Of a stretch of DNA of 47,844 nucleotides, positions 9 to 47,844 are shown piece after piece. The stretch is from a virus. The stretch lies in IMG/VR virus record IMGVR_UViG_3300020171_000043, positions 1 through 47,844 of that record; one strand, written 5' to 3'. A program made the position numbers and the translations under genes. The first letter of the stretch is position 1; each line of letters opens with the position of its first letter. The notes below the pieces were generated by a model. That model saw nothing but the letters and a program-made list of their open reading frames with translations. It did not search any database and was not told where the DNA came from.

Positions 9-134
9 ATTTAAAATAAAAATATAACAAAAAAAGAAATTCGCAAACTTGATCAACTAGCCCGTGAAAAAGCTAAAGAGAATTACAGTAAATGTATTAT
101 TTGCGGAAACCCCAACATAAATATTCATCACTGC
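9..134. repeat. Terminal direct repeat, left copy
   Basis: These 126 bases are identical to 47719-47844 at the other end of the window. They cover the A-rich leader and first third of an HNH gene. The simplest reading is that the assembly closes on itself, so the genome is circular or terminally redundant with a unit of about 47.7 kb. Bases 1-8 differ from 47711-47718, so the overlap is not a perfect end-to-end match. A local variant, a second copy of the locus or a bad contig tip could explain this. Confidence 0.9.
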
Positions 135-8470: not shown

Positions 8471-8538
8471 TAGCGTTGAACATAAAATCCCTCTTGGTAT
8501 AATCGTTTCAACGCTATTATATCCGGCGGGATTTTATG
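8471..8538 (+). promoter_or_regulatory. Pseudoknot leader covering the HNH start codon
   Basis: Stem 1 pairs TAGCGTTGAA (8471-8480) with TTCAACGCTA (8507-8516). Stem 2 pairs CATAAAATCCC (8481-8491), immediately after stem 1, with GGGATTTTATG (8528-8538). The stems interlock as an H-type pseudoknot with loops of 15 and 11 bases. The ATG at 8536-8538 forms the end of stem 2, so the start codon would be hidden when folded. A later in-frame ATG at 8548 escapes. Translational repression of the endonuclease is inferred. Confidence 0.65.
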
Positions 8539-9081
8539 TATAAAATTATGGTAAAGTGTGTGTCAGGATATAATAATCAGTATTTAATTTATCCTAATGG
8601 CAAAGTTTATTCTAAAAAACAAATTTGCTGGAATGGAGTTAAACACTGGGTTAAAAAAGGTCGATATTTAAAAATTCAAATAGCAATTAATGGGTATAAG
8701 GTCGTTGGTCTATCTAAAAAAGGAATTACAAAATTGGAATATTTACATAGATTGATTGCAAAAAGCTTTATACCAAATCCAGACAATAAAAAGACGGTAA
8801 ATCATAAAGACGGTAATAAATTAAATAATAATCTGTGTAATCTAGAATGGGCGACTTATTCTGAAAATACGAAACACGCATTTTATACAGGACTTATGAT
8901 TGGTAAAAAGTCTTTTGGTGAAAACAATCATCAATCCAAAGTAAAAGAAAAACAAATAGCAGAAATTAGAATTTTAAAAAATATTAAATTATTAAAAGAA
9001 ACCGCCAAATTATACAATTTAAGTATTAGCCAAATATGGTCAATACAAAATAATGTATCTTGGCGACATATAAAAGTATGA
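8536..9081 (+). CDS. NUMOD4-HNH homing endonuclease
   Basis: A 181-residue protein with the homing-endonuclease layout. A NUMOD4 motif (YLIYPNGKVYSKKQI, about residues 16-30, continuing to 60) is followed by an HNH domain (HRLIAKSFIPNPDNKKTVNHKDGNKLNNNLCNLEWATYSEN, about 75-115) and a C-terminal DNA-binding helix-turn-helix repeat (about 135-175). It would nick or cut DNA lacking the insertion, at or near the start of the ssDNA-binding gene. It has its own promoter and leader. Its TGA overlaps the ATG of the next gene. A stub of the invaded gene is left upstream at 8404. Confidence 0.9.
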   Translation: MYKIMVKCVSGYNNQYLIYPNGKVYSKKQICWNGVKHWVKKGRYLKIQIAINGYKVVGLSKKGITKLEYLHRLIAKSFIPNPDNKKTVNHKDGNKLNNNLCNLEWATYSENTKHAFYTGLMIGKKSFGENNHQSKVKEKQIAEIRILKNIKLLKETAKLYNLSISQIWSIQNNVSWRHIKV

Positions 9082-9635
9082 GCTTCCTTCCTAGTTCTTA
9101 CAAAGTTCCTGTCTCCAGCGGTAATTATTTTAAACTGCAAGACGGGGAAAATACATTCAGAGTTTTAAGCTCGGCAATCATTGGCTGGGAATACTGGACT
9201 ACCGTTAACAAGCCAGTCAGAAATAAGGAAAAATTTAACGATATACCCGAAGATATTAAAATCGGCAAAGATGGAAAGATAAGTATTAAGCATTTTTGGG
9301 CTTTTGTGGTATGGGATTATCAAGACAAGGCGATTAAGATATTGGAAATAACTCAACAGACCATTCAAAAACCGATTAAGGCTTTAGTTGATAATCCGAA
9401 GTGGGGAGATCCGAAGAAGTATGACATTTCAATCACTCGTTCAGGCGAAGGATTTGAAACTGAATATTCGGTTATGCCTAATCCTCATACGGAGATAAAA
9501 GTTGAAGTTCAAGAGGCATATAAAAACAAGTCAGTTAACTTAGAAGCTTTATATTCGGGGAAAGACCCATTTCAAGAAGGTAAAAAAGCCAAAGAAATAA
9601 TTGATATAATGGGTGGTGAAGAATTGCCTGTATAA
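9078..9635 (+). CDS. Putative phage ssDNA-binding protein
   Basis: A 185-residue protein. The N-terminus (MSFLPSSYKVP, NYFKLQDGENTFRVL) and the following WEYWTT, FWAFVVWDYQDKAIKILEITQ pattern match a widespread phage OB-fold ssDNA-binding family (T4 gp32-like/gp2.5-like core). The C-terminus is acidic (DIMGGEELPV), as in many SSBs that recruit partners through an acidic tail. ATG 9078 is chosen because the extra upstream codons (from 9060) are the end of the HNH gene in another frame. Its first codons were rebuilt by the HNH insertion. Confidence 0.65.
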   Translation: MSFLPSSYKVPVSSGNYFKLQDGENTFRVLSSAIIGWEYWTTVNKPVRNKEKFNDIPEDIKIGKDGKISIKHFWAFVVWDYQDKAIKILEITQQTIQKPIKALVDNPKWGDPKKYDISITRSGEGFETEYSVMPNPHTEIKVEVQEAYKNKSVNLEALYSGKDPFQEGKKAKEIIDIMGGEELPV

Positions 9636-9671
9636 CAAGAAGGCATTAAAATAAGAAAATAAGGCTAAAAT

Positions 9672-10118
9672 ATGCTATACGAATTTAATATAAAAATATC
9701 AATCAATGCGGCTGATAGCGTAAAAGCTAAAGAATTGCTTACTTTCGGATTAAAAAGTCTAGACTGCAAGATATTAGAACTGGAAAATATCGCCCAAGTA
9801 AGAAGTTCTCAGCAGAATAAAGCAATTCACCTCTGGTTTACGCAACTAGCTCAAGCGCTTAACGAAGCGGGTTTTGATATGAGAAAAACCATATCGCCAA
9901 TGGTGGATATTAGCTGGACTGATTACACGGTTAAAGAATATTTGTGGCGACCAGTCCAAAAATCTCTTTATGGGACAAAATCAACAAGACAACTTAAAAG
10001 ACACGAAATAGATTTAATTTTCGATAACATAAATAGAATAATAGGTAAAAGAACCGGTGTTTATGTAGAATTTCCGAGTATTCAATCTTACGAAAAACAG
10101 CAAATTTCTAAACTATAA
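9672..10118 (+). CDS. NinB-like recombination protein
   Basis: A 148-residue protein. The stretch RSSQQNKAIHLWFTQLAQALNEAGFDM, then WTDYTVKEYLWRPVQKSLYGTKSTRQLKRHEIDLIFDNINRIIG and a YVEFPSI end, is a well-known phage pattern seen next to ssDNA-binding and recombination genes. NinB-like is the closest label I can offer; the exact family name is uncertain. Its place after the SSB supports a role in recombination or replication. Confidence 0.55.
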   Translation: MLYEFNIKISINAADSVKAKELLTFGLKSLDCKILELENIAQVRSSQQNKAIHLWFTQLAQALNEAGFDMRKTISPMVDISWTDYTVKEYLWRPVQKSLYGTKSTRQLKRHEIDLIFDNINRIIGKRTGVYVEFPSIQSYEKQQISKL

Positions 10119-10651: not shown

Positions 10652-10921
10652 ATGAACTTAGAAGAAACAATTAAACAGCAAGACGAAAAATTTGAGAAAA
10701 TTTTAAATAATCCAATGTTGCGCTCTAGCAGTAATGGCACAAAAATAATAAAAGAAGACTGGAAGTCTTATCTCCATTGCCGAGACCAAGCCATCGCCGA
10801 AGCGGTGAGGGAAGAAATACTTGATATATTCTCCAAAGAGCGTTTAAATTGGGTTAAAGACAGTACTGGTGATATAGCCTTAAGAGAGTTTAAAAACGCA
10901 ATTCTTAACGGATTAAAATAA
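10652..10921 (+). CDS. Paralogous small protein (copy 1)
   Basis: An 89-residue protein starting MNLEETIKQQDEKFEK, with SYLHCRDQAIAEAVREEILDI. The same blocks appear in the 11437 protein (MNLKETIIKQDEKFNK, SYLRIRDQAIAEAVREEE), and more loosely in 10926. A tandem family has therefore expanded here. Function unknown. Confidence 0.5.
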   Translation: MNLEETIKQQDEKFEKILNNPMLRSSSNGTKIIKEDWKSYLHCRDQAIAEAVREEILDIFSKERLNWVKDSTGDIALREFKNAILNGLK

Positions 10922-11436: not shown

Positions 11437-11748
11437 ATGAACTTAAAAGAAACAATAATAAAACAAGATGAAAAATTTAACAAAGAATTTCCTGAAATCG
11501 AATGTTCAGCTCACGAAAGAACATCATCGGCAATGTGCATTTGCGCAGAACTTCCTGACCTAAACGAAGAAAAAAGAAATATTAAATCTTATCTCCGTAT
11601 CAGAGATCAAGCAATTGCCGAAGCAGTGAGGGAAGAAGAAAGAGAAAAAATTAAAAAATATATTGTGAATGAAATGCTTATTTGTAATAAGGAAGGAACT
11701 CCAACATCTCGATTAACTTCATTGACTTGCAGAATAAAGGATTTTTAA
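11437..11748 (+). CDS. Paralogous small protein (copy 2)
   Basis: A 103-residue relative of the 10652 protein, with the same N-terminal block and RDQAIAEAVREE. It has inserted a cysteine-containing segment (ECSAHERTSSAMCICAEL) that resembles the Cys-rich half of the 10926 protein. This indicates duplication and mixing of modules. Function unknown. Confidence 0.5.
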   Translation: MNLKETIIKQDEKFNKEFPEIECSAHERTSSAMCICAELPDLNEEKRNIKSYLRIRDQAIAEAVREEEREKIKKYIVNEMLICNKEGTPTSRLTSLTCRIKDF

Positions 11749-11774: not shown

Positions 11775-12299
11775 ATGACAATAGATGAAGCAAAACAAAA
11801 GATTGAAGAACTAAAAAACTTCTTAAAACAAGAAGACGAAGAATTGCCATTTTTATGGGTAAAAATTGATTATTCCGTAATCCCGCAAGCATTATTTGAG
11901 AAATACGGAGTCAAGCCGTTTGAGATTATGAAAAGAAAAATGAGAAACAAGGACGGAAAAGTTTGGAATAATATCAATTACTTTGACGCTCAAAAAGAAT
12001 GTGAAAAATTAGGTTTTCGACTGCCAAATATTAGAGAAATGTTAATGCTCTTAGAATACTATAAAAATGGCAATCAAATAATTTCTTATAAAGATAAAGA
12101 ATTTTTGGGAATTGAAGAATTATCTTATGGGGAAGATGTATGTTACGAATGGATTTATTGTTTTGTAGATGTCGCCTTGGAGCGCGGCGGCCATTGGGAC
12201 AGTGCCGCGTACGCTGGCGTGTTCACGCTGAATTTGAACTATTCGCCTTCGTACGCGAGCACGAGCGTCGGCTTCCGGTGTGTTAGAGAAATTAAATAA
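11775..12299 (+). CDS. C-type-lectin-like variable protein, retroelement target
   Basis: A 174-residue protein. The N-terminal part (LPFLWVKIDYSVIPQALFEKYG, then FDAQKECEKLGFRLPNIREMLMLL) resembles proteins of the formylglycine-enzyme/C-type-lectin fold that serve as targets of diversity-generating retroelements. The last 45 residues (ERGGHWDSAAYAGVFTLNLN and SPSYASTSVGFRC) match the typical variable-region ending, where exposed positions come from mutated adenines. The DNA of this part is about 64% GC, against about 30% just upstream. Such proteins bind variable ligands. No reverse transcriptase or template repeat is seen in the window, so diversification would have to come from elsewhere. 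Confidence 0.75.
   Translation: MTIDEAKQKIEELKNFLKQEDEELPFLWVKIDYSVIPQALFEKYGVKPFEIMKRKMRNKDGKVWNNINYFDAQKECEKLGFRLPNIREMLMLLEYYKNGNQIISYKDKEFLGIEELSYGEDVCYEWIYCFVDVALERGGHWDSAAYAGVFTLNLNYSPSYASTSVGFRCVREIK
12171..12281 (+). other. Putative diversity-generating retroelement variable region
   Basis: This GC-rich tract at the end of the lectin-like gene has the codon pattern of a variable repeat. TAC, TAT, AGT, AGC, ACG and CAT occur at places where related sequences carry AAC or AAT, while the framework (GGCG, GTGTTCACGCTG, GTCGGCTTCCGG) looks fixed. The GC-rich 3' end would be the initiation site for retrohoming. Its base composition is foreign to the rest of this genome. Confidence 0.6.
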
Positions 12300-12301
12300 C
12301 T

Positions 12302-12400
12302 ATGCAAAAATATATAACAAACACAATAAAAATGAAATGGAAATATTATTTTATCTGCAAAGGAAGAAGATTAAATCAATTAACTTTTAACTTTAATTAA
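12302..12400 (+). pseudogene. Truncated copy of the 10136 zinc-ribbon gene
   Basis: The first 22 codons parallel the gene at 10136 (both encode a segment with KWKYYFICKG), with many identical bases. Then the copy runs into a stop after 32 residues, before the zinc cysteines. It is probably a decayed duplication, though a short product could still be made. Confidence 0.55.
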
Positions 12401-17581: not shown

Positions 17582-17818
17582 ATGCCAAGAGGAGTATATA
17601 AAAGAACAGAAAATACAAGAAATAAAATGAGTGAATCTAAAAAAAGATATTTTACCAATGGTGGTCTTTCCTCTAGGGGAATGTTAGGAAAGAAACAGTC
17701 AGAAAAACAAAAGAAGAAAATGAGTGAAGTGCATAAAGGTAAAAAACTTTCCAAGATTACAATAGAAAAAATTAAAAAAAATCATATAAGAATGACTGGA
17801 AAAAGACATTCTGATTAG
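17582..17818 (+). CDS. NUMOD3-only relic of a homing endonuclease
   Basis: A 78-residue protein made of NUMOD3-type motifs (RNKMSESKKRYF, SEKQKKKMSEVHKGKKLSK), which in homing nucleases bind DNA. No HNH or GIY-YIG catalytic domain remains. It is wedged between terL and the portal gene, a common invasion point. It is best read as a C-terminally truncated homing endonuclease that has lost nuclease activity; it could still bind DNA. Confidence 0.65.
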   Translation: MPRGVYKRTENTRNKMSESKKRYFTNGGLSSRGMLGKKQSEKQKKKMSEVHKGKKLSKITIEKIKKNHIRMTGKRHSD

Positions 17819-20359: not shown

Positions 20360-20959
20360 ATGTCACCAGTAAAGTTAAAAAACGAAGAGGGAGAAGAATT
20401 TGATGTTCTCACTAATGAGGAAATAGAAACTCAAAAGAATGAGGCTATTGAATTGGCAAAACAAGATTACGAGGCGGAAAAAGAAACTCTTAACAGAGAA
20501 CTCGCCGAAGCCAAAGAAGCACTCGCCAAGACAGGAGATAAAGATTATAATTTCAGTCAATTAAGAAAAACAGTTGATGGATTAAAAGCCTCAAAGGAAA
20601 CTTTGGAAAAAACTTTTACATCAGAATTGTCTAATCTTAAAAAATCTTTATCGGAAAAAACAATCAACGGTTTTATCAAAGAAGAGTCCGGCGGAGATGC
20701 GGATCTGGAAAAGAAACTCAGATTTCATTACGATAAAACTCTCGCCAGTATGCCGGCAGAAACCGAAGAGGATATACGAACCAGAGTAAAGAGCGCGTCA
20801 TTATTGGAAGGTCGAACCAATACAAACAGTTCTTTTATTTCATCGGCAGGGTCGGGAAATGTTAAAATAAAAACCGAGAAACTCACTCAAGACCAACAAG
20901 ACCTCGCCAATAAAATGGGTGTCTCGCAAGAAGATATTAAAAAATATTCGAAACAATAA
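20360..20959 (+). CDS. Scaffolding protein
   Basis: A 199-residue acidic protein with a long coiled coil (residues about 20-100, repeated KE-rich heptads), a folded middle and a C-terminal KLTQDQQDLANKMGVSQEDIKKYSKQ helix pair. Scaffolds of HK97-fold phages look like this: coiled coil then a capsid-binding C-terminal helix-loop-helix, placed before the major capsid gene. Its 3' end was rebuilt by an HNH insertion: the last 36 bases recur after the insertion at 21705-21740. Confidence 0.65.
   Translation: MSPVKLKNEEGEEFDVLTNEEIETQKNEAIELAKQDYEAEKETLNRELAEAKEALAKTGDKDYNFSQLRKTVDGLKASKETLEKTFTSELSNLKKSLSEKTINGFIKEESGGDADLEKKLRFHYDKTLASMPAETEEDIRTRVKSASLLEGRTNTNSSFISSAGSGNVKIKTEKLTQDQQDLANKMGVSQEDIKKYSKQ
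20921..20956 (+). repeat. Duplicated scaffold 3' end, copy 1
   Basis: The 36 bases at 20921-20956 match 21705-21740 at 33 of 36 positions and both encode VSQEDIKKYSK. Copy 1 closes the functional scaffold gene. Copy 2 lies beyond the HNH gene and is fused to its end. This is a footprint of homing insertion that restored the host gene. Confidence 0.8.
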
Positions 20960-20966
20960 TATTAAA

Positions 20967-21740
20967 ATGACGGAAGAGCATAAAACAAAAATAAGTCTCG
21001 CAAATAAAGGTAGAAAATTATCAAAAGAAACAAAGATAAAAATGAGTATTGCTCATAAAGGGAAAAAATTCTCAGAAGAACATAAAAGAAAAATAGGAGA
21101 ATATAAACTTAAAAACCCTGTAAGATATTGGTTAGGTAAAAAAAGACTAGATATTTCTAATAATATGAAAAATAGAATTATTTCATTAGAAACTAGAACA
21201 AAAATGAGTAATTCAAAAAAAGGTAAGAAATATCATTTAGGTTATAAAGCTTCAAGTGAAACTATAAAAAAATTAAGAGAATCGCACTTAGGTTATAAAC
21301 AAACTGAAGAAACTAAAAGAAAAATAGGTTTAGCAAGTAAGGGAAATAAATATTGTTTAGGAAAACATCCATCTTTAGAATCTAGAATTAGAATGAGTTT
21401 AAGTAGAAAAGGTAAAAGAAGTCATTTATGGAAAGGAGGTATAAATTTAATAAATGACACAATTAGAAAATCTATAGAAACAAGATTATGGCGTGAAGCA
21501 GTATTTGCTAGAGATAATTGGACTTGCCAGAAGACAAAAATAAAGGGTTGCAAATTACATCCACATCATATTCAAAATTTTGCTCAATATCCCGAACTAA
21601 GATTTGCTATCGATAATGGGATTACTTTATCAGAAAAATCTCATATGGAATTTCATAAAAAATATGGATATAGAAACAACACTAAACAACAAATAGAAGA
21701 ATTCGTCTCGCAGGAAGATATTAAAAAATATTCTAAATAA
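20967..21740 (+). CDS. NUMOD3-HNH homing endonuclease in the scaffold gene
   Basis: A 257-residue protein. Residues 1-150 contain several NUMOD3 motifs (TEEHKTKISLANKGRKLSKETK, SEEHKRKIGEY). A HLWKGGINLINDTIRK segment leads to the HNH domain (WREAVFARDNWTCQKTKIKGCKLHPHHIQNF...LRFAIDNGITL). The second knuckle reads LSEKSH rather than the usual LCxxCH, so one zinc pair appears lost. ATG 20967 is preferred to the upstream 20919. Its C-terminus, VSQEDIKKYSK, is the old end of the scaffold gene read in the same frame, evidence of insertion at the scaffold 3' end. Confidence 0.85.
   Translation: MTEEHKTKISLANKGRKLSKETKIKMSIAHKGKKFSEEHKRKIGEYKLKNPVRYWLGKKRLDISNNMKNRIISLETRTKMSNSKKGKKYHLGYKASSETIKKLRESHLGYKQTEETKRKIGLASKGNKYCLGKHPSLESRIRMSLSRKGKRSHLWKGGINLINDTIRKSIETRLWREAVFARDNWTCQKTKIKGCKLHPHHIQNFAQYPELRFAIDNGITLSEKSHMEFHKKYGYRNNTKQQIEEFVSQEDIKKYSK
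21705..21740 (+). repeat. Duplicated scaffold 3' end, copy 2
   Basis: The original end of the scaffold gene, now read as the C-terminus of the HNH protein. Three silent or near-silent differences from copy 1 indicate that the sequences have drifted or that the element brought its own version. Confidence 0.8.
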
Positions 21741-28653: not shown

Positions 28654-29307
28654 ATGGGTTATGAAAATTGCGGTAAATATCTAAGAACTGAAAAGCATAA
28701 ACAAATAAGTATACAAAATTTGTCAGTTAATTTCCATAAGCTTGGAAAGGATAATCCTTTTTTCGGCAAACATCACACAGAAGAGGCAATAAAAAAGAAC
28801 TCGGAAAAGCATAAAGGAAAAAATAATTCGAATTGGGGTAAGCACCGTAATGAAGAAACTAAAAGAAAGATAAGTGAGGCAAATTCAGGAAATAAAAATC
28901 CGATGTATGGAAAACATCCTATTGGAATGAGAGGCAAAAAACACACGACAGAAGTCAGACAAAAGATGAGTGAATCACATAAAGGGGAAAAAAGTTATTT
29001 ATGGAAAGGTGGTATAACACCAATAAATCAAAAAATAAGAAAAGGTATAGATATTAGACTCTGGCGAGAATTGATTTTCCAAAGAGATGGTTTTCTCTGC
29101 CAAATGCCAGACTGCGATAAAACCGAAAGATACCTAAATGCACATCACATAATGAAGTTTGCCGATTATCCTGAGCTACGATTTGAAGTTTCTAATGGAA
29201 TTACTCTTTGCAAAAAATGTCACGATAAAATTCAATGGAAAGAAGAAAAATTTGAGAATATGTTTATAGAAATAGTTAAATTAAAAATTATTAACTTAAA
29301 AATATGA
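28654..29307 (+). CDS. NUMOD3-HNH homing endonuclease
   Basis: A 217-residue protein. NUMOD3 repeats occupy residues about 30-110 (NPFFGKHHTEEAIKKNSEKHKGKNNSNWG, NEETKRKISEANSGNKNPMYGKHP), then YLWKGGITPINQKIRKG and an intact HNH domain (CQMPDCDKTERYLNAHHIMKFADYPELRFEVSNGITLCKKCHDK, about 149-192) with all four zinc cysteines. It fills the joint between the coiled-coil and tail-fibre genes with no spare bases: ATG directly after TAA, and its TGA overlaps the next ATG. Confidence 0.88.
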   Translation: MGYENCGKYLRTEKHKQISIQNLSVNFHKLGKDNPFFGKHHTEEAIKKNSEKHKGKNNSNWGKHRNEETKRKISEANSGNKNPMYGKHPIGMRGKKHTTEVRQKMSESHKGEKSYLWKGGITPINQKIRKGIDIRLWRELIFQRDGFLCQMPDCDKTERYLNAHHIMKFADYPELRFEVSNGITLCKKCHDKIQWKEEKFENMFIEIVKLKIINLKI

Positions 29308-38318: not shown

Positions 38319-41300
38319 ATGAATTTAACAGAATTTTTAAGAACAAAAATTAAAAAAGGAATGATAGACGAGAATAATTATCGTTCAAATGTTGTTAAAA
38401 AACCAACAATGGTTTTTAAGGTTGGGGAAGGACTTAATCCTGAACAAAAGAAAATAGCGGAAGCGACTGTAAGAAAAGCGGTAATACCTCCAATTTGGGA
38501 ACAGATGACTATACCCCAAAAAATAAAAGCGACTATACCAGAATTGCCGTATGGAGCTTACGAAACAGGAAAAGGCATAGCCAAAGGTGTAGCTACGGCA
38601 GCGGTTAGAATTCCGTTATCTTTGACGCAAGCGATTAAAGCTCCAGGACAAGTGGAAAAAAAGCCGCTTAAACTTCCTTATCTGGGCGAAATACCGACTT
38701 ATCAAAAAGAATTTCAAGGAATTGCTAACGATATTATTGAAGGCAAAAAACCTTTATGGCACGCTTTAAAGCCATTTGCGGAAGTGCCTTTGGACGCTTG
38801 GATAGTTGAAGGGCTTTTAACCAGCGGAGCAAAAGCGATTGTCAAAAGAATACCAGTTAATGAACCCCAGGTGGCGGCGAGTATCAGTAAAATGGGATTA
38901 ACCGACATTTCCGCTAGTTCGCAAAAAACCCAATTTATAAAATTAGCCAATAAATTTCACCCTGATAAAGTCGGCGCGCAGTCAACCAAACTAATGACGG
39001 AAGTAAACAACGCCAACGATATTATTACCGTTGCCCGCAAACAAGGAACTTTAATTAAAAACCCCGCAGGTGTTGCCAAAGCAATGCGGGATTTAGCCGA
39101 AACAGGACTTAAAAATGTTAAAGATATTTTAAAAACAGGCGAAGGAACTGCTTATATGGGAGTTAAGGGCTTGCTTACCCAGCAAGCTGGAGCTACTCCC
39201 GCGCAACCTTATCAACCATATCGCCAACCGTCTTTTGGATTATCAATTAAAGAAATAAACGAAGTGCCGGGGGCTTTACGAAAAATGGTTAAACCCTCTC
39301 TTCTTCAAGAAGCCAAGAGCAAGCCAATTATAAAAGATGACTTTATGAGTTGGGGAAATATAGAAATCAAGAGAAATCCTCTTACTAATAAATGGTTGGT
39401 AAATGATAAATTCAAAAGTAGAGCAGAAAATTTTTATGTTAATAAAGCAGACGCAAAGAGGATAATTAACTTTGCCCAAAAAAAAGCACAAGAAGCCAAA
39501 CCAGTTTCTAAACCTCTTATTCAAAAAGCCAAAAAATTACCAGAAAGAACAGCAGATACAATTATTCAACCAAAAAAATATGAAACAAAATTAGAGATAA
39601 GAACACAAGAGCAAATAATTAAACAATCTGCGGAAAATGAAAAACTTGGGTTGTCTGATGCGGAAATTTTAAAACAAATAGAAAACAATTATTCTATTGA
39701 ATATAAATTATCAAAAGAAGGAGTTCCAATAACAGAAACTCTTAAAAAAGTAGATAGGAATGATGGTTATTTTCACGAAGGAAATGTTGAAGTAAAAAAA
39801 TTAGCAGACGAATATGGAGATTTTAGAATTGCTATAAAAGATGTTAATGGACAGACAGCCGGAGTCCCTGTTTCAGAGTTTTTGAAATGGTCAGATTATA
39901 AGGAGTTCAGAGATAGGGTCAGAGAAGTCTTTATCAATAGAAATTTTCTTTCTAAACAAAAACCTTTTGTTGACAAAAACTTTATGCAAGAATTATTCAA
40001 TAAAGGTAAATTGCAAACAAATCTTATAGGGAAATCAGAAAATATCAACATTGATATTTCAAAAATAAAGGGAAAAGTCAAATTGTCAAACACATCAACT
40101 ATTTCACAAATTCAAAAATCTAAATTTGTTGAAACTATAAACAACCCTTTTGTTCAGGAAAAATTATTAGAAAATGGAATTAAAGAAGTCAACATTCAAC
40201 CTCCTTATAAATTCAGTTTGTCAGAACAGGGACATATTGTTAAAGGAAAGGGAATAATCAATATCAGTGCAGATGCCACAAACCCTTCCAAAACAATTTT
40301 ACACGAATTGGGACACGCTAAATTTGAAAGTTTATCTAAAACAGAACAGGCAAAATTGATTGATATAGCAAAAAACACGCAAGACATTTCAATGCAAGGA
40401 TATAAAAAAATAGGAGCTTGGGAAGAAATAGCAGCAGATACGATGTATAAACTGCCAGAAGTCCAACCTGACACCCCCCTGAAGCCCTCTATCTCGCCCG
40501 TAGAAGCGTTAAAAGTTGAAAAAGGTATATTACCGCCAGCGGAATTGAAAAATTTAATGGACAGAAATAATGTTTATTGGGATGATATTGAAAAATCAAT
40601 GGAAAGAAAATTGAACATAGACAAACCGCTTGACCGACAACTTGCCTTAAATCATCTTAAAAAAATTATTTCAAAAACTAATGGCGAGATAATTTCTCCC
40701 AAAGTTTTACCGCAAGCTCAAGAAGGAGTGAAGCCTATCTCCAAAATTGCGAAGGATGAGAAGGCGCTCGTTCAGGGTGAGGTTGCGCCCCGTCCCGTCC
40801 CGCCCAAACTCCCAGAAAAAATATTCCCAGCAAAGCCAAAAGAAATAAAGCAGATTTTAGGTTTTGGTGATTCATATAAAGCGGTTTATAATAAAATGGA
40901 TAAAATACCAAGCGTCAAAGACCCGACGACCTTTAAGAAATTTAAAGACAAGGTTGCTGACGCTTGGTTAGCGACAAGAGAATTAGTTGAAGATGACTGG
41001 GTAAGAGTTAAGAAATTAATTCAAAGAAAAGATGTAAAAATAAGCGAAACATCTGACCCTTATATGGCGGAAATTCTTATGCACGGCAGAATGGGAACAA
41101 GGATTGAAGAGGCGAAAGATATTGTCATTAAAATAGACAAAGACATTTTAAAATTATCAAAACAGTTAGGAAAGAAATCTGACGATGTCCTAGCCGATGT
41201 TGATAATTATTTAATCGCCAGACACGCTCCTGAAAGAAATCTCGCTCTTGGAGAAAAGGCGGCGGGAATTACAACGGCAGAAGCGAATAAAATCGTAGCA

Positions 41301-44027
41301 CAAACTGATAAGAATATTATAAAAATAGCCGATGAGATACAGGAATTAAATAACAAAACCCTTGATGTGTTATTAGACGGCGAAGTTATTGACCAGAAAC
41401 TTTACGATACTTTGAGAAATAAATATAAACATCATATTCCACTTAATAGAATTTTTGAAGACACGGAAGACATCGGGCAGGCGATTGCTGGCAGACCTTT
41501 TGATGTTCGTTCTACAGGAATTTTAAGAGCGAAAGGAAGCGAAAGAAAAGTCGCAGATGTGATGACAAACATCACCACCAATTACGAGCAAGCGATTATC
41601 AGGGCGGAAAAGAACAGAGTTGATTTAGCGACTTTGAAATTCGCGCGAGATAATAAAGACATCGGACTTTTCACGGAAGTAAAACCTCCGCAAATACCAG
41701 TAGCAAAGATAACACACAGAGAAGCAATAGACGAAGTATATTTTAAAAAGGTAATTGACTTTACAAATTCATTAGGCGGGAAAGTTTCTACAAAGGGACA
41801 GCCAGGAAGACGTCTCGGATATTTTCGCAAACCTTCTGAGGTAGTGAGAAAAACCGCAACTCCGAGAGAAATTTTATCGCACGAAGTCGGTCATTTTCTT
41901 GATAATAAATTTGGACTGAAACAAAGATTTTATAAAAGAGGGGAAACCAAAAAGGTAGCGGAAGAAATGATAGGGTGGATGGAAGAAATGGGAGAGTCTG
42001 CTAACAGAATGAAAAAAACGGAAGAAAGATTTGCCGATTCTTTTGAGTGGTGGCTGACTAATCGCGCGTTAGCGGAAGAGAGACTGCCTCTTTTTTCAAG
42101 AGAGATAGAAAATATTATCAAAGATATACCAGAATTGAAACCATTGATTTTAATAAAACCTTCTGGGAGATTCACAATTCAAGGAACACAAGAAGTTATT
42201 TTCAGACCGTCCGTTGATAAATTATTGAAAGACCCGACTATTCTTGCGATGAGAGAAAAAGGCAAACCTGTTTATTTGAAAATAGAAGACACACCTTTAG
42301 CTCTTGCTTTAAGAGGAGTTAATCGCTGGAAGGTGGATGGAGTAATGCGGGGCGTGCAAGCGATTACAAGATTTTATTCACAATTAGCGACAAGATTCAA
42401 CCCAGAGTTTTTTCTGCCAAATAAAGTTAGAGACTCGCAGGAAGCATTTGTTTATATGGCTTCTAAAAATGAATTTGGTTTTAAGGGAGCGGCGAAAGCG
42501 GCAATGGGAGACACAAAGAGTATAAAGTCGGTAATGGATTATATTAGAGGCGTTGATTCAGAAGGAGCAAAACTTTATAAACAAATGAAAATGGACGGAG
42601 GAACTACTGGAGGACTTGGACTTTCTACCAGAAAAAACGTTGAACTTGATATAAACAAAATCAGGGAAATAAATAGAAGCAAGCCGAGACAAGCGGCGGA
42701 AATGATTGTAAGGGCGATTGATGACATAAACACTGTTTTCGAAGATAGTACCAGATTATCAATTTACAAACAAGCGTTAAAAAGTGGAGCGACAAGAGAA
42801 AGAGCGGCGGTGTTGGCGAAAGAAGGAACTATAAACTTTAATAAGTTTGGCAAAGGCGGGCCGGTTGTCAACGCAATGTATATGTTCGCCAACGCTTCAA
42901 TTCAGGGTTCGGCTAAAATGTTAAGAGCGTTGAGAAATCCAAAAATCGCGGGTGTTGTGATAACGAGTATTGGAACTGCTGTTGTTGCTGTTAATGAATG
43001 GAACGATAAGGTTGATAAAAACTGGAGAGATAAAATTTCAAAATGGGATAGAATGAACTCTTTGCCTGTTGTATTTCCAAAAGAAGACGGAGGGATAACT
43101 TATTTTTCAATTCCTGTTTCGTGGGGAATTAAACCAATTAAAGTTTCTATGGACTATGCGGCAGATGTTATGGCGGGAAGAGAAGATTTAAAGAGTTCTA
43201 TAAGCGGAATTTTAGCGTCAGTTATGGAAGGATATAATCCAGTCGGCGGAACTAATTTAACTTCAGTGATCACACCTACCGTTTTAGATATGCCTGTTGA
43301 AATTGCCAGAAATTTGGGTTGGTACGGAAGCAAGATAAGACCTGATTGGGACATAAACGCTCCCGCTTCTATTCAGTATTATACTTCATTAAAAGATAAC
43401 GCGACTGGTAAAACTTTTATTCAAGTATCAAAGGGATTATCTGGAATGGGTGTAGAAATATCGCCTGCCGATATGAATTACGCTTATAGCCAATTAGTCG
43501 GAGGTGCGGGCAGGTTTGTTTCAAAAGTTGCGAATACTTTTGTTTCTATCGGGAAGGGAGAAACTCCGTCAGTAAGAGAAATTCCTTTTGTCAGTAGATT
43601 TTTAAGGCAATTCACAGAAGAAGAAGTCGGGTCTAAAAGCAAGAAATTCGGAGACATTAAAAAGGTTTTACAAGAGCAATCTCGGGATAAATTTATTTTA
43701 AACCAAGAAGCAGAAGACGCTTTTGCTCAACTTAAAAATCTTCCTAAAGAACAAAAAAAGGAAATGGTTGCAAGCTTAATAAAAGAAAACCTCGAATTAG
43801 CTAAAAAATTAAATGAACTTGTTATAGATGAAAATTTGAATTTGAATTACATTGATAGATTAGTAAAACAACTAGGAGTTGAGAATAAGGAAAGAGCAAA
43901 ATATGTCGCTGGCGAACTTAATAAAATGAAAACCAAACAAGAAAAGAAAGACTATATAAAAGAAATGATAGCCAAAAAAATAATCACTGAACAGGTAGCA
44001 GGACAGATGATAGGGTTTTTAAAATAA
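38319..44027 (+). CDS. Giant polyvalent internal protein: J-like motif and two zincins
   Basis: A 1902-residue protein. A J-like segment holds the HPD triad at residues 214-216 (KLANKFHPDKVGAQSTKLMTEVNNANDI). A first zincin motif HELGH is at 662-666, followed by GAWEEIAADTMY. A second, HEVGH at 1188-1192, has downstream EERFADSFEWWL (about 1235) supplying a likely third ligand. Residues about 1355-1560 (ATRFNPEFFLPNKVRDSQEAFVY, KFGKGGPVVNAMYMFANASIQG) match the large-polyvalent-protein domain 38 type. The last 150 residues are helical and charged. Such proteins are packed in the head, injected early and act on host proteins or DNA. The two peptidases may process the polyprotein itself or host targets. 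Confidence 0.75.
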   Translation: MNLTEFLRTKIKKGMIDENNYRSNVVKKPTMVFKVGEGLNPEQKKIAEATVRKAVIPPIWEQMTIPQKIKATIPELPYGAYETGKGIAKGVATAAVRIPLSLTQAIKAPGQVEKKPLKLPYLGEIPTYQKEFQGIANDIIEGKKPLWHALKPFAEVPLDAWIVEGLLTSGAKAIVKRIPVNEPQVAASISKMGLTDISASSQKTQFIKLANKFHPDKVGAQSTKLMTEVNNANDIITVARKQGTLIKNPAGVAKAMRDLAETGLKNVKDILKTGEGTAYMGVKGLLTQQAGATPAQPYQPYRQPSFGLSIKEINEVPGALRKMVKPSLLQEAKSKPIIKDDFMSWGNIEIKRNPLTNKWLVNDKFKSRAENFYVNKADAKRIINFAQKKAQEAKPVSKPLIQKAKKLPERTADTIIQPKKYETKLEIRTQEQIIKQSAENEKLGLSDAEILKQIENNYSIEYKLSKEGVPITETLKKVDRNDGYFHEGNVEVKKLADEYGDFRIAIKDVNGQTAGVPVSEFLKWSDYKEFRDRVREVFINRNFLSKQKPFVDKNFMQELFNKGKLQTNLIGKSENINIDISKIKGKVKLSNTSTISQIQKSKFVETINNPFVQEKLLENGIKEVNIQPPYKFSLSEQGHIVKGKGIINISADATNPSKTILHELGHAKFESLSKTEQAKLIDIAKNTQDISMQGYKKIGAWEEIAADTMYKLPEVQPDTPLKPSISPVEALKVEKGILPPAELKNLMDRNNVYWDDIEKSMERKLNIDKPLDRQLALNHLKKIISKTNGEIISPKVLPQAQEGVKPISKIAKDEKALVQGEVAPRPVPPKLPEKIFPAKPKEIKQILGFGDSYKAVYNKMDKIPSVKDPTTFKKFKDKVADAWLATRELVEDDWVRVKKLIQRKDVKISETSDPYMAEILMHGRMGTRIEEAKDIVIKIDKDILKLSKQLGKKSDDVLADVDNYLIARHAPERNLALGEKAAGITTAEANKIVAQTDKNIIKIADEIQELNNKTLDVLLDGEVIDQKLYDTLRNKYKHHIPLNRIFEDTEDIGQAIAGRPFDVRSTGILRAKGSERKVADVMTNITTNYEQAIIRAEKNRVDLATLKFARDNKDIGLFTEVKPPQIPVAKITHREAIDEVYFKKVIDFTNSLGGKVSTKGQPGRRLGYFRKPSEVVRKTATPREILSHEVGHFLDNKFGLKQRFYKRGETKKVAEEMIGWMEEMGESANRMKKTEERFADSFEWWLTNRALAEERLPLFSREIENIIKDIPELKPLILIKPSGRFTIQGTQEVIFRPSVDKLLKDPTILAMREKGKPVYLKIEDTPLALALRGVNRWKVDGVMRGVQAITRFYSQLATRFNPEFFLPNKVRDSQEAFVYMASKNEFGFKGAAKAAMGDTKSIKSVMDYIRGVDSEGAKLYKQMKMDGGTTGGLGLSTRKNVELDINKIREINRSKPRQAAEMIVRAIDDINTVFEDSTRLSIYKQALKSGATRERAAVLAKEGTINFNKFGKGGPVVNAMYMFANASIQGSAKMLRALRNPKIAGVVITSIGTAVVAVNEWNDKVDKNWRDKISKWDRMNSLPVVFPKEDGGITYFSIPVSWGIKPIKVSMDYAADVMAGREDLKSSISGILASVMEGYNPVGGTNLTSVITPTVLDMPVEIARNLGWYGSKIRPDWDINAPASIQYYTSLKDNATGKTFIQVSKGLSGMGVEISPADMNYAYSQLVGGAGRFVSKVANTFVSIGKGETPSVREIPFVSRFLRQFTEEEVGSKSKKFGDIKKVLQEQSRDKFILNQEAEDAFAQLKNLPKEQKKEMVASLIKENLELAKKLNELVIDENLNLNYIDRLVKQLGVENKERAKYVAGELNKMKTKQEKKDYIKEMIAKKIITEQVAGQMIGFLK

Positions 44028-47533: not shown

Positions 47534-47583
47534 AGATATACAATTTTTAGAAATTTAGAGATTATTGTCGAGAAAAGAACTTG

Positions 47584-47690
47584 AATTGGTAGAGCTTCCG
47601 TCCGATAAACGGAAAGAGATGGAAAACTTGGAGAAATACCGTATTTGCGATTTGCGGAATGTCGCAGGTTCGAGTCCTGCTGTGCCTACA
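47584..47690 (+). other. tRNA-like 3' half, probable relic or attachment-type sequence
   Basis: GCAGG-TTCGAGT-CCTGC (47664-47680) is a perfect T-arm, followed by TGTGCCT and ACA as a 3' acceptor. Upstream are a D-loop-like AATTGGTAGAGC (47584-47595), a TTCCGT-CCGATAA-ACGGAA stem-loop (47596-47614) and a second stem, CCGTA/TGCGG. No 5' acceptor matching AGGCACA exists, and the spacing is about 45 bases too long, so it cannot fold as a normal tRNA. It may be a decayed tRNA, or a copied tRNA 3' end of the type used as an integration core; no integrase is present. Confidence 0.4.
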
Positions 47691-47718: not shown

Positions 47719-47844
47719 ATTTAAAATAAAAATATAACAAAAAAAGAAATTCGCAAACTTGATCAACTAGCCCGTGAAAAAGCTAAAGAGAATTACAGTA
47801 AATGTATTATTTGCGGAAACCCCAACATAAATATTCATCACTGC
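47719..47844. repeat. Terminal direct repeat, right copy
   Basis: Identical to 9-134. It includes the beginning of the HNH frame (ATA ACA AAA ...), which is cut by the end of the window. Confidence 0.9.

Follow-up and report, generated by a model that had tools for sequence, protein, structure and literature searches.

The window analysed here is the whole of IMG/VR virus record IMGVR_UViG_3300020171_000043, 47,844 nucleotides in length, and centres on a gene that a diversity-generating retroelement (DGR) has targeted but that stands in the genome as an orphan. The features used below, with positions counted from the first letter of the window, are as follows, where VR stands for variable repeat and TR for template repeat.

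11775 to 12299, plus strand: orphan DGR target gene (ORF call, 174 aa)
12171 to 12281, plus strand: GC-rich island (0.62-0.64) covering the VR plus a few codons on its 5' side
12183 to 12281, plus strand: VR core of 33 codons, RGGHWDSAAYAGVFTLNLNYSPSYASTSVGFRC, identified by homology to the TRs and VRs of complete DGRs and by A-site and constant-site statistics
12192 to 12266, plus strand: the ten codon sites that read AAY in the consensus of real TRs
9 to 134, plus strand: left copy of an exact 126-bp direct repeat at the termini (circular assembly)
47719 to 47844, plus strand: right copy of the same repeat, running to the right end
14867 and 16010: terminase genes
17838: portal gene, assigned from position alone
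23444: capsid gene
38319 to 44027: LPD38 protein gene

The target protein has the VR at its C terminus, preceded by a predicted N-terminal helix (about residues 1-25) and a putative C-type-lectin-like body, with helices also predicted at residues 69-78 and 86-97 (YFDAQKECEKLGFRLPNIREMLMLLEYY). Its final ~45 residues, RGGHWDSAAYAGVFTLNLNYSPSYASTSVGFRCVREIK, resemble the VR and TR peptides of genuine DGRs, and this C-terminal stretch matches L001, a complete DGR locus, by tblastn (E=1e-7). The same stretch is matched by PHROG 2889 (4.5e-11) and by the PHROG tail protein 5302 (7.6e-7), and a profile built from 15 other DGR targets, with the window protein excluded, matches residues 116-169 at 4e-16. 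No FGE-type body was found upstream of the VR, as the hmmsearch match is significant over residues 116-169 only. A profile of aligned DGR targets that includes the window protein matches PDB 5vf4, the Thermus aquaticus DGR variable protein TaqVP, at 1e-92. Outside the VR, however, no significant similarity links the window protein to the FGE-type body of TaqVP, and it is about half the size. An AF2 model based on a 16-sequence alignment is weak (pLDDT 55.6); the matches listed for it by Foldseek are nearly all C-type lectins or link modules, none of them significant (best E 0.22). A single-sequence fold was discarded (pLDDT 39). Most probably, the protein is a small lectin-like binder.

The peptide RGGHWDSAAYAGVFTLNLNYSPSYASTSVGFRC shows the residue grammar known from DGR VRs, and a pattern derived from it retrieved L001, a phage locus in which a target, avd, a template and a reverse transcriptase (RT) are all present. 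Between the L001 template and the window VR, identity is 77% across 90 bp (1e-8). A degenerate pattern yielded 120 viral stretches, with an RT in the locus for 110 of 125 matches. From these stretches we assembled 89 unique TR/VR pairs of complete viral DGRs, with at least 95% identity at non-A positions, and it is the consensus of their TRs, rather than the VR's own template, that serves as the reference for the substitution statistics of the window VR. Adenine is kept at 55% of the consensus adenine sites in the window, compared with 44±14% in real VRs and 95% in TRs (lowest TR 70%). Constant-site identity is 0.76 in the window, 76.7% in the TRs and 76.8% in the VRs of the 89 pairs. The ten AAY-site codons read CAT (12192), GAC (12198), AGT (12201), TAC (12210), AAT (12231), AAC (12237), TAT (12240), TAC (12252), AGC (12258) and AGC (12264); all ten are still NNY, with C or T as third base, and in eight the first or second base differs from that of AAY. 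Because adenine retention, constant-site identity and NNY codons all match real VRs, we read 12183-12281 as a DGR-type VR and not as a template. An earlier note on this DNA had proposed that the C-terminal 45 residues are a retroelement variable region, and both the homology and the VR-like A-site statistics bear this out.

We further note that the window VR shows no excess decay at constant positions, and that neither these positions nor its GC content have drifted towards the AT-rich phage genome. Measured by the pace of synonymous change, the last writing of the VR would therefore be recent. No hairpin is predicted 3' of the VR at 12262-12345, and the GC-rich 3' end of the VR is present. 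An IMH-type downstream hairpin is not found in every DGR.

The GC content of the VR is striking within the window. Its best 100 bp reach 0.64, compared with a window mean of 0.354 (sd 0.081), and rank first among all 100-mers, while GC3 stands at 0.77 within the VR but at 0.27 elsewhere in the target gene. Across 102 VR copies, the VR exceeds the 400 bp upstream of it by a mean GC of 0.112 (sd 0.059, max 0.290; +0.144 in AT-rich contigs), and the step of +0.324 in the window is larger than in all 102. In a regression on genome GC over the 89 pairs, the VR GC expected at the GC of the window's genome is 0.576 (sd 0.039) and the observed value is 0.626 (z=+1.29); the template predicted for this VR falls at +0.97 sd in the same regression. 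A GC island is what DGR repeats ordinarily look like when the genome around them is AT-rich. The suggestion that 64% GC points to capture from another genome is consequently not upheld, given that real repeats are GC-enriched too (z=+1.3), and we rejected the island as a sign of foreign capture since the VR GC lies within range relative to genome GC.

The target gene comes after SSB/NinB-like genes (9060-10118) and before the terminase genes, apart from the structural cluster, which agrees with the earlier placement of the gene away from the tail cluster. Two paralogous small genes, 10652-10921 and 11437-11748, lie just upstream of it; both begin MNL.ETI..QDEKF and have RDQAIAEAVREE in common, and no convincing family match was found for either. 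Homing-endonuclease-like HNH/NUMOD3 genes also occur at 8536-9081, 17582-17818 and 28654-29307. In addition, the C terminus of a NUMOD3 ORF at 20919-21740, VSQEDIKKYSK, repeats that of the upstream gene at 20360-20959, as if a homing endonuclease had inserted there and copied the gene's 3' end in the process.

With the 126-bp exact direct repeat at its two ends the genome looks closed, and the record very probably represents the entire phage as a circle of about 47.7 kb. Within it, a six-frame search gave no RVT_1 matches, and HMMs of 102 DGR RTs and of 108 Avd proteins found nothing significant in the window (best E 1.6 and 0.72, respectively). No relics or scar of RT or Avd were detected in the window by blastx at E<=1, a search that, as a control, recovered the scar of the Vibrio phage pYD38-B described below at 4e-6. 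Nor does the window hold a second VR-like copy or template, as the best non-self match with adenine positions left free scores below shuffled controls. The RVT_1, HMM and adenine-tolerant searches thus confirm that neither an RT nor a template repeat is in the window, an absence that is strengthened by the closed appearance of the genome. The VR has been written by a machine outside the present genome, whether that of the infected cell, that of another phage or one now lost.

The template behind the VR would resemble CGCGGCGGCAATTGGAACAAT...GTCGGCTTCCGGTGT, with the peptide RGGNWNNNTNAGVFTLNLNNSPSNTNTNVGFRC; in degenerate form it would read CGCGGCGGCNNTTGGNNCNNTNNCNCGNNCGCTGGCGTGTTCNCGCTGNNTTTGNNCNNTTCGCCTTCGNNCNCGNNCNCGNNCGTCGGCTTCCGGTGT, where each N is expected to be A. 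Four sequence patterns run against IMG/VR returned no cognate template, only cross-family TRs, and the best TR among all fetched loci matches the window VR at 77-78% of non-A positions, where true pairs reach at least 95%. Among the matches listed from a GTDB pattern scan there was likewise no cognate template; most were chance matches in GC-rich genomes, and they include a Pigmentiphaga with TR- and VR-like copies. A VR consensus query rich in N gave no matches, probably through low-complexity masking. An exact 30-bp match to the 3' end in L216 was rejected as cognate. It belongs to the VR of a GC-rich phage that owns its DGR, and is a coincidence because the VR 3' end is commonly shared. In 395 Bacteroidota genomes the target protein was matched in one, itself a separate complete DGR, and the portal-position protein gave weak matches in two. 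A clade of cell-encoded DGRs resides in Patescibacteria (PMC8144416).

Like the window, the Bordetella phage BPP-1 (with Mtd as target), L001, VHML and ACA2 carry a C-terminal VR of ~100 bp, theirs in a lectin-fold protein and that of the window in a putatively lectin-like one, and the peptide grammar RGG.W....AGV..L.L....S......GFR is shared by the window with L001, VHML and ACA2. In all four, however, avd, TR and RT adjoin the target in the tail module, whereas all three are missing from the window phage and its gene lies elsewhere. A BPP-1 phage without avd, TR and brt was retargeted in trans from a plasmid, both in lytic infection and as a prophage (PMC3240598), and by this precedent in-trans writing is experimentally possible. 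Remote DGR targets served in trans have also been inferred within one genome, in Thiohalocapsa PB-PSB1 (PMC10907252). As in the window, a VR there lacks a local RT and TR and the writer acts from elsewhere, but its template is in the same genome and matches at all non-A sites, whereas the window target is phage-borne.

RT-less phages with orphan VRs exist. VR-like peptides were found in 26 cultured-phage records, and six Vibrio phages among them (1.127.O, 1.119.O, 1.137.O, 1.143.O, 1.231.O and pYD38-B) fall outside the set of RT-bearing Vibrio records. The loci concerned are:

L253, 4129 to 4476 (Vibrio phage pYD38-B), and L250, L251, L252, L255 and L256: RT-less Vibrio phages with VR-bearing tail proteins, and in pYD38-B an avd-RT deletion scar

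RVT_1 was absent from the four RT-less Vibrio phage records searched, including the whole pYD38-B record. The target genes of 1.127.O and pYD38-B are 81% identical, and their differences fall at codon positions 1 and 2 in 17/20 cases in the VR, compared with 68/235 in the rest of the gene (Fisher p=1e-6), a bias that reads as the mark of adenine mutagenesis. Just 3' of the pYD38-B target, the start of avd is fused to the end of the RT (58% identity to ACA2 with E=1e-14, and 63% with E=6e-10, respectively). This deletion scar indicates that pYD38-B once had a DGR, since deleted. In its relatives, five Nahant Vibrio isolates with one identical VR, even the scar is gone. Cassette loss is thus a well-supported route to an orphan VR in phages. 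The Vibrio phages resemble the window phage in carrying a VR-bearing protein in a genome without RT, but their target is a large FGE-type protein inside the tail module, related isolates have one VR, and pYD38-B, unlike the window, retains an explicit DGR deletion scar.

We favour, at a probability of roughly 0.45, an orphan target that is rewritten in trans by a writer in the infected cell. Adenine-directed mutagenic homing would pass from a template into the VR in the last 33 codons of a stand-alone C-type-lectin-like protein. A writer in the infected cell, on the host chromosome or on a co-resident element, would rewrite the phage copy in trans during infection, and the phage would thereby keep its binding protein open to diversification with none of the machinery in its own genome. 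Mutagenic homing requires its target solely as DNA. An outside writer is favoured because the gene lies beyond the tail module, no scar is seen and the constant sites are undecayed. The narrower proposal that the DGR of the cellular host itself diversifies the phage lectin, with template and RT borrowed at each infection, is more tentative and somewhat doubtful. Several findings count against a trans writer, namely that no cognate template turned up in the loci fetched, that no IMH hairpin is predicted downstream and that in the nearest cultured parallels, the Vibrio phages, the orphan VR is explained by loss of the phage's own DGR. The first and the last of these speak instead for a frozen VR, in which the phage lost its own DGR or acquired an already diversified host or phage target and the lectin is now fixed and undiversified. 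In pYD38-B the avd/RT scar comes directly after a tail protein that still bears its VR, the Nahant phages show that such loss can leave no scar and one VR in five isolates, and the cognate TR of the window was absent from the IMG/VR scans. In the window, by comparison, no scar lies near the target gene, which is located outside the tail module, the usual site of phage cis DGRs, and any freezing would have to be recent, as the constant positions have not drifted towards the AT-rich genome. We place writing in trans ahead of a frozen VR, which is nearly as likely.

The remaining explanations fare less well. An ordinary cis DGR, its RT and template missing through an incomplete or mis-closed assembly, is unlikely. 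The left repeat copy begins 8 bases inside the left end, so that closure is not textbook, and the record is a virus entry of a public collection shown with no completeness estimate; but the repeat reaches the right end exactly, as in a closed circle, and the terminase, capsid and other structural genes all fall within the 47.7 kb. Moreover, the VR of a complete DGR normally has its TR and RT no more than a few kb away, and here 12 kb and 35 kb flank the target. It is far less probable still that the gene is no DGR product at all and ends in an ordinary FGE/C-type-lectin domain that is GC-rich by chance. The Pfam FGE-sulfatase match to the protein stands at only 0.0038, and there is no own template to prove A-specificity directly, points that can be cited in favour of such a domain. 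They are set against the nucleotide homology to true TRs, the VR-like A-site statistics with every AAY codon still NNY, and the GC3 switch at the VR border.

DGR surveys begin from the reverse transcriptase, and a large RT-anchored survey states that remote targets are invisible to it (PMC8144416). A phage without RT and with an intact VR implies that the pool of targets exceeds RT-anchored catalogues. If the host is the writer, hypermutation would be a shared resource open to phage parasitism, with host and phage sharing one engine. If the VR is frozen, such genes would be fossils of lost DGRs, as in pYD38-B.

Searches with the target, terminase, portal-position protein and capsid returned no close relatives of the gene or the phage, and tRNA- or att-like sequence gave no clue to the host. 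A Shine-Dalgarno motif precedes just 4 of the 53 gene starts checked, and the upstream sequence is A-rich (e.g. TAAAACT-ATG), hinting that Shine-Dalgarno initiation is not used by the host. Near the right end, at 47580-47690, lies a tRNA-like remnant that was called by neither ARAGORN nor Rfam, with a D-arm-like TTGGTAGAGC, an anticodon-arm-like TCCGT-CCGATAA-ACGGA, a T-arm GCAGG-TTCGAGT-CCTGC and TGTGCCTACA. It is a possible candidate for an attachment site.
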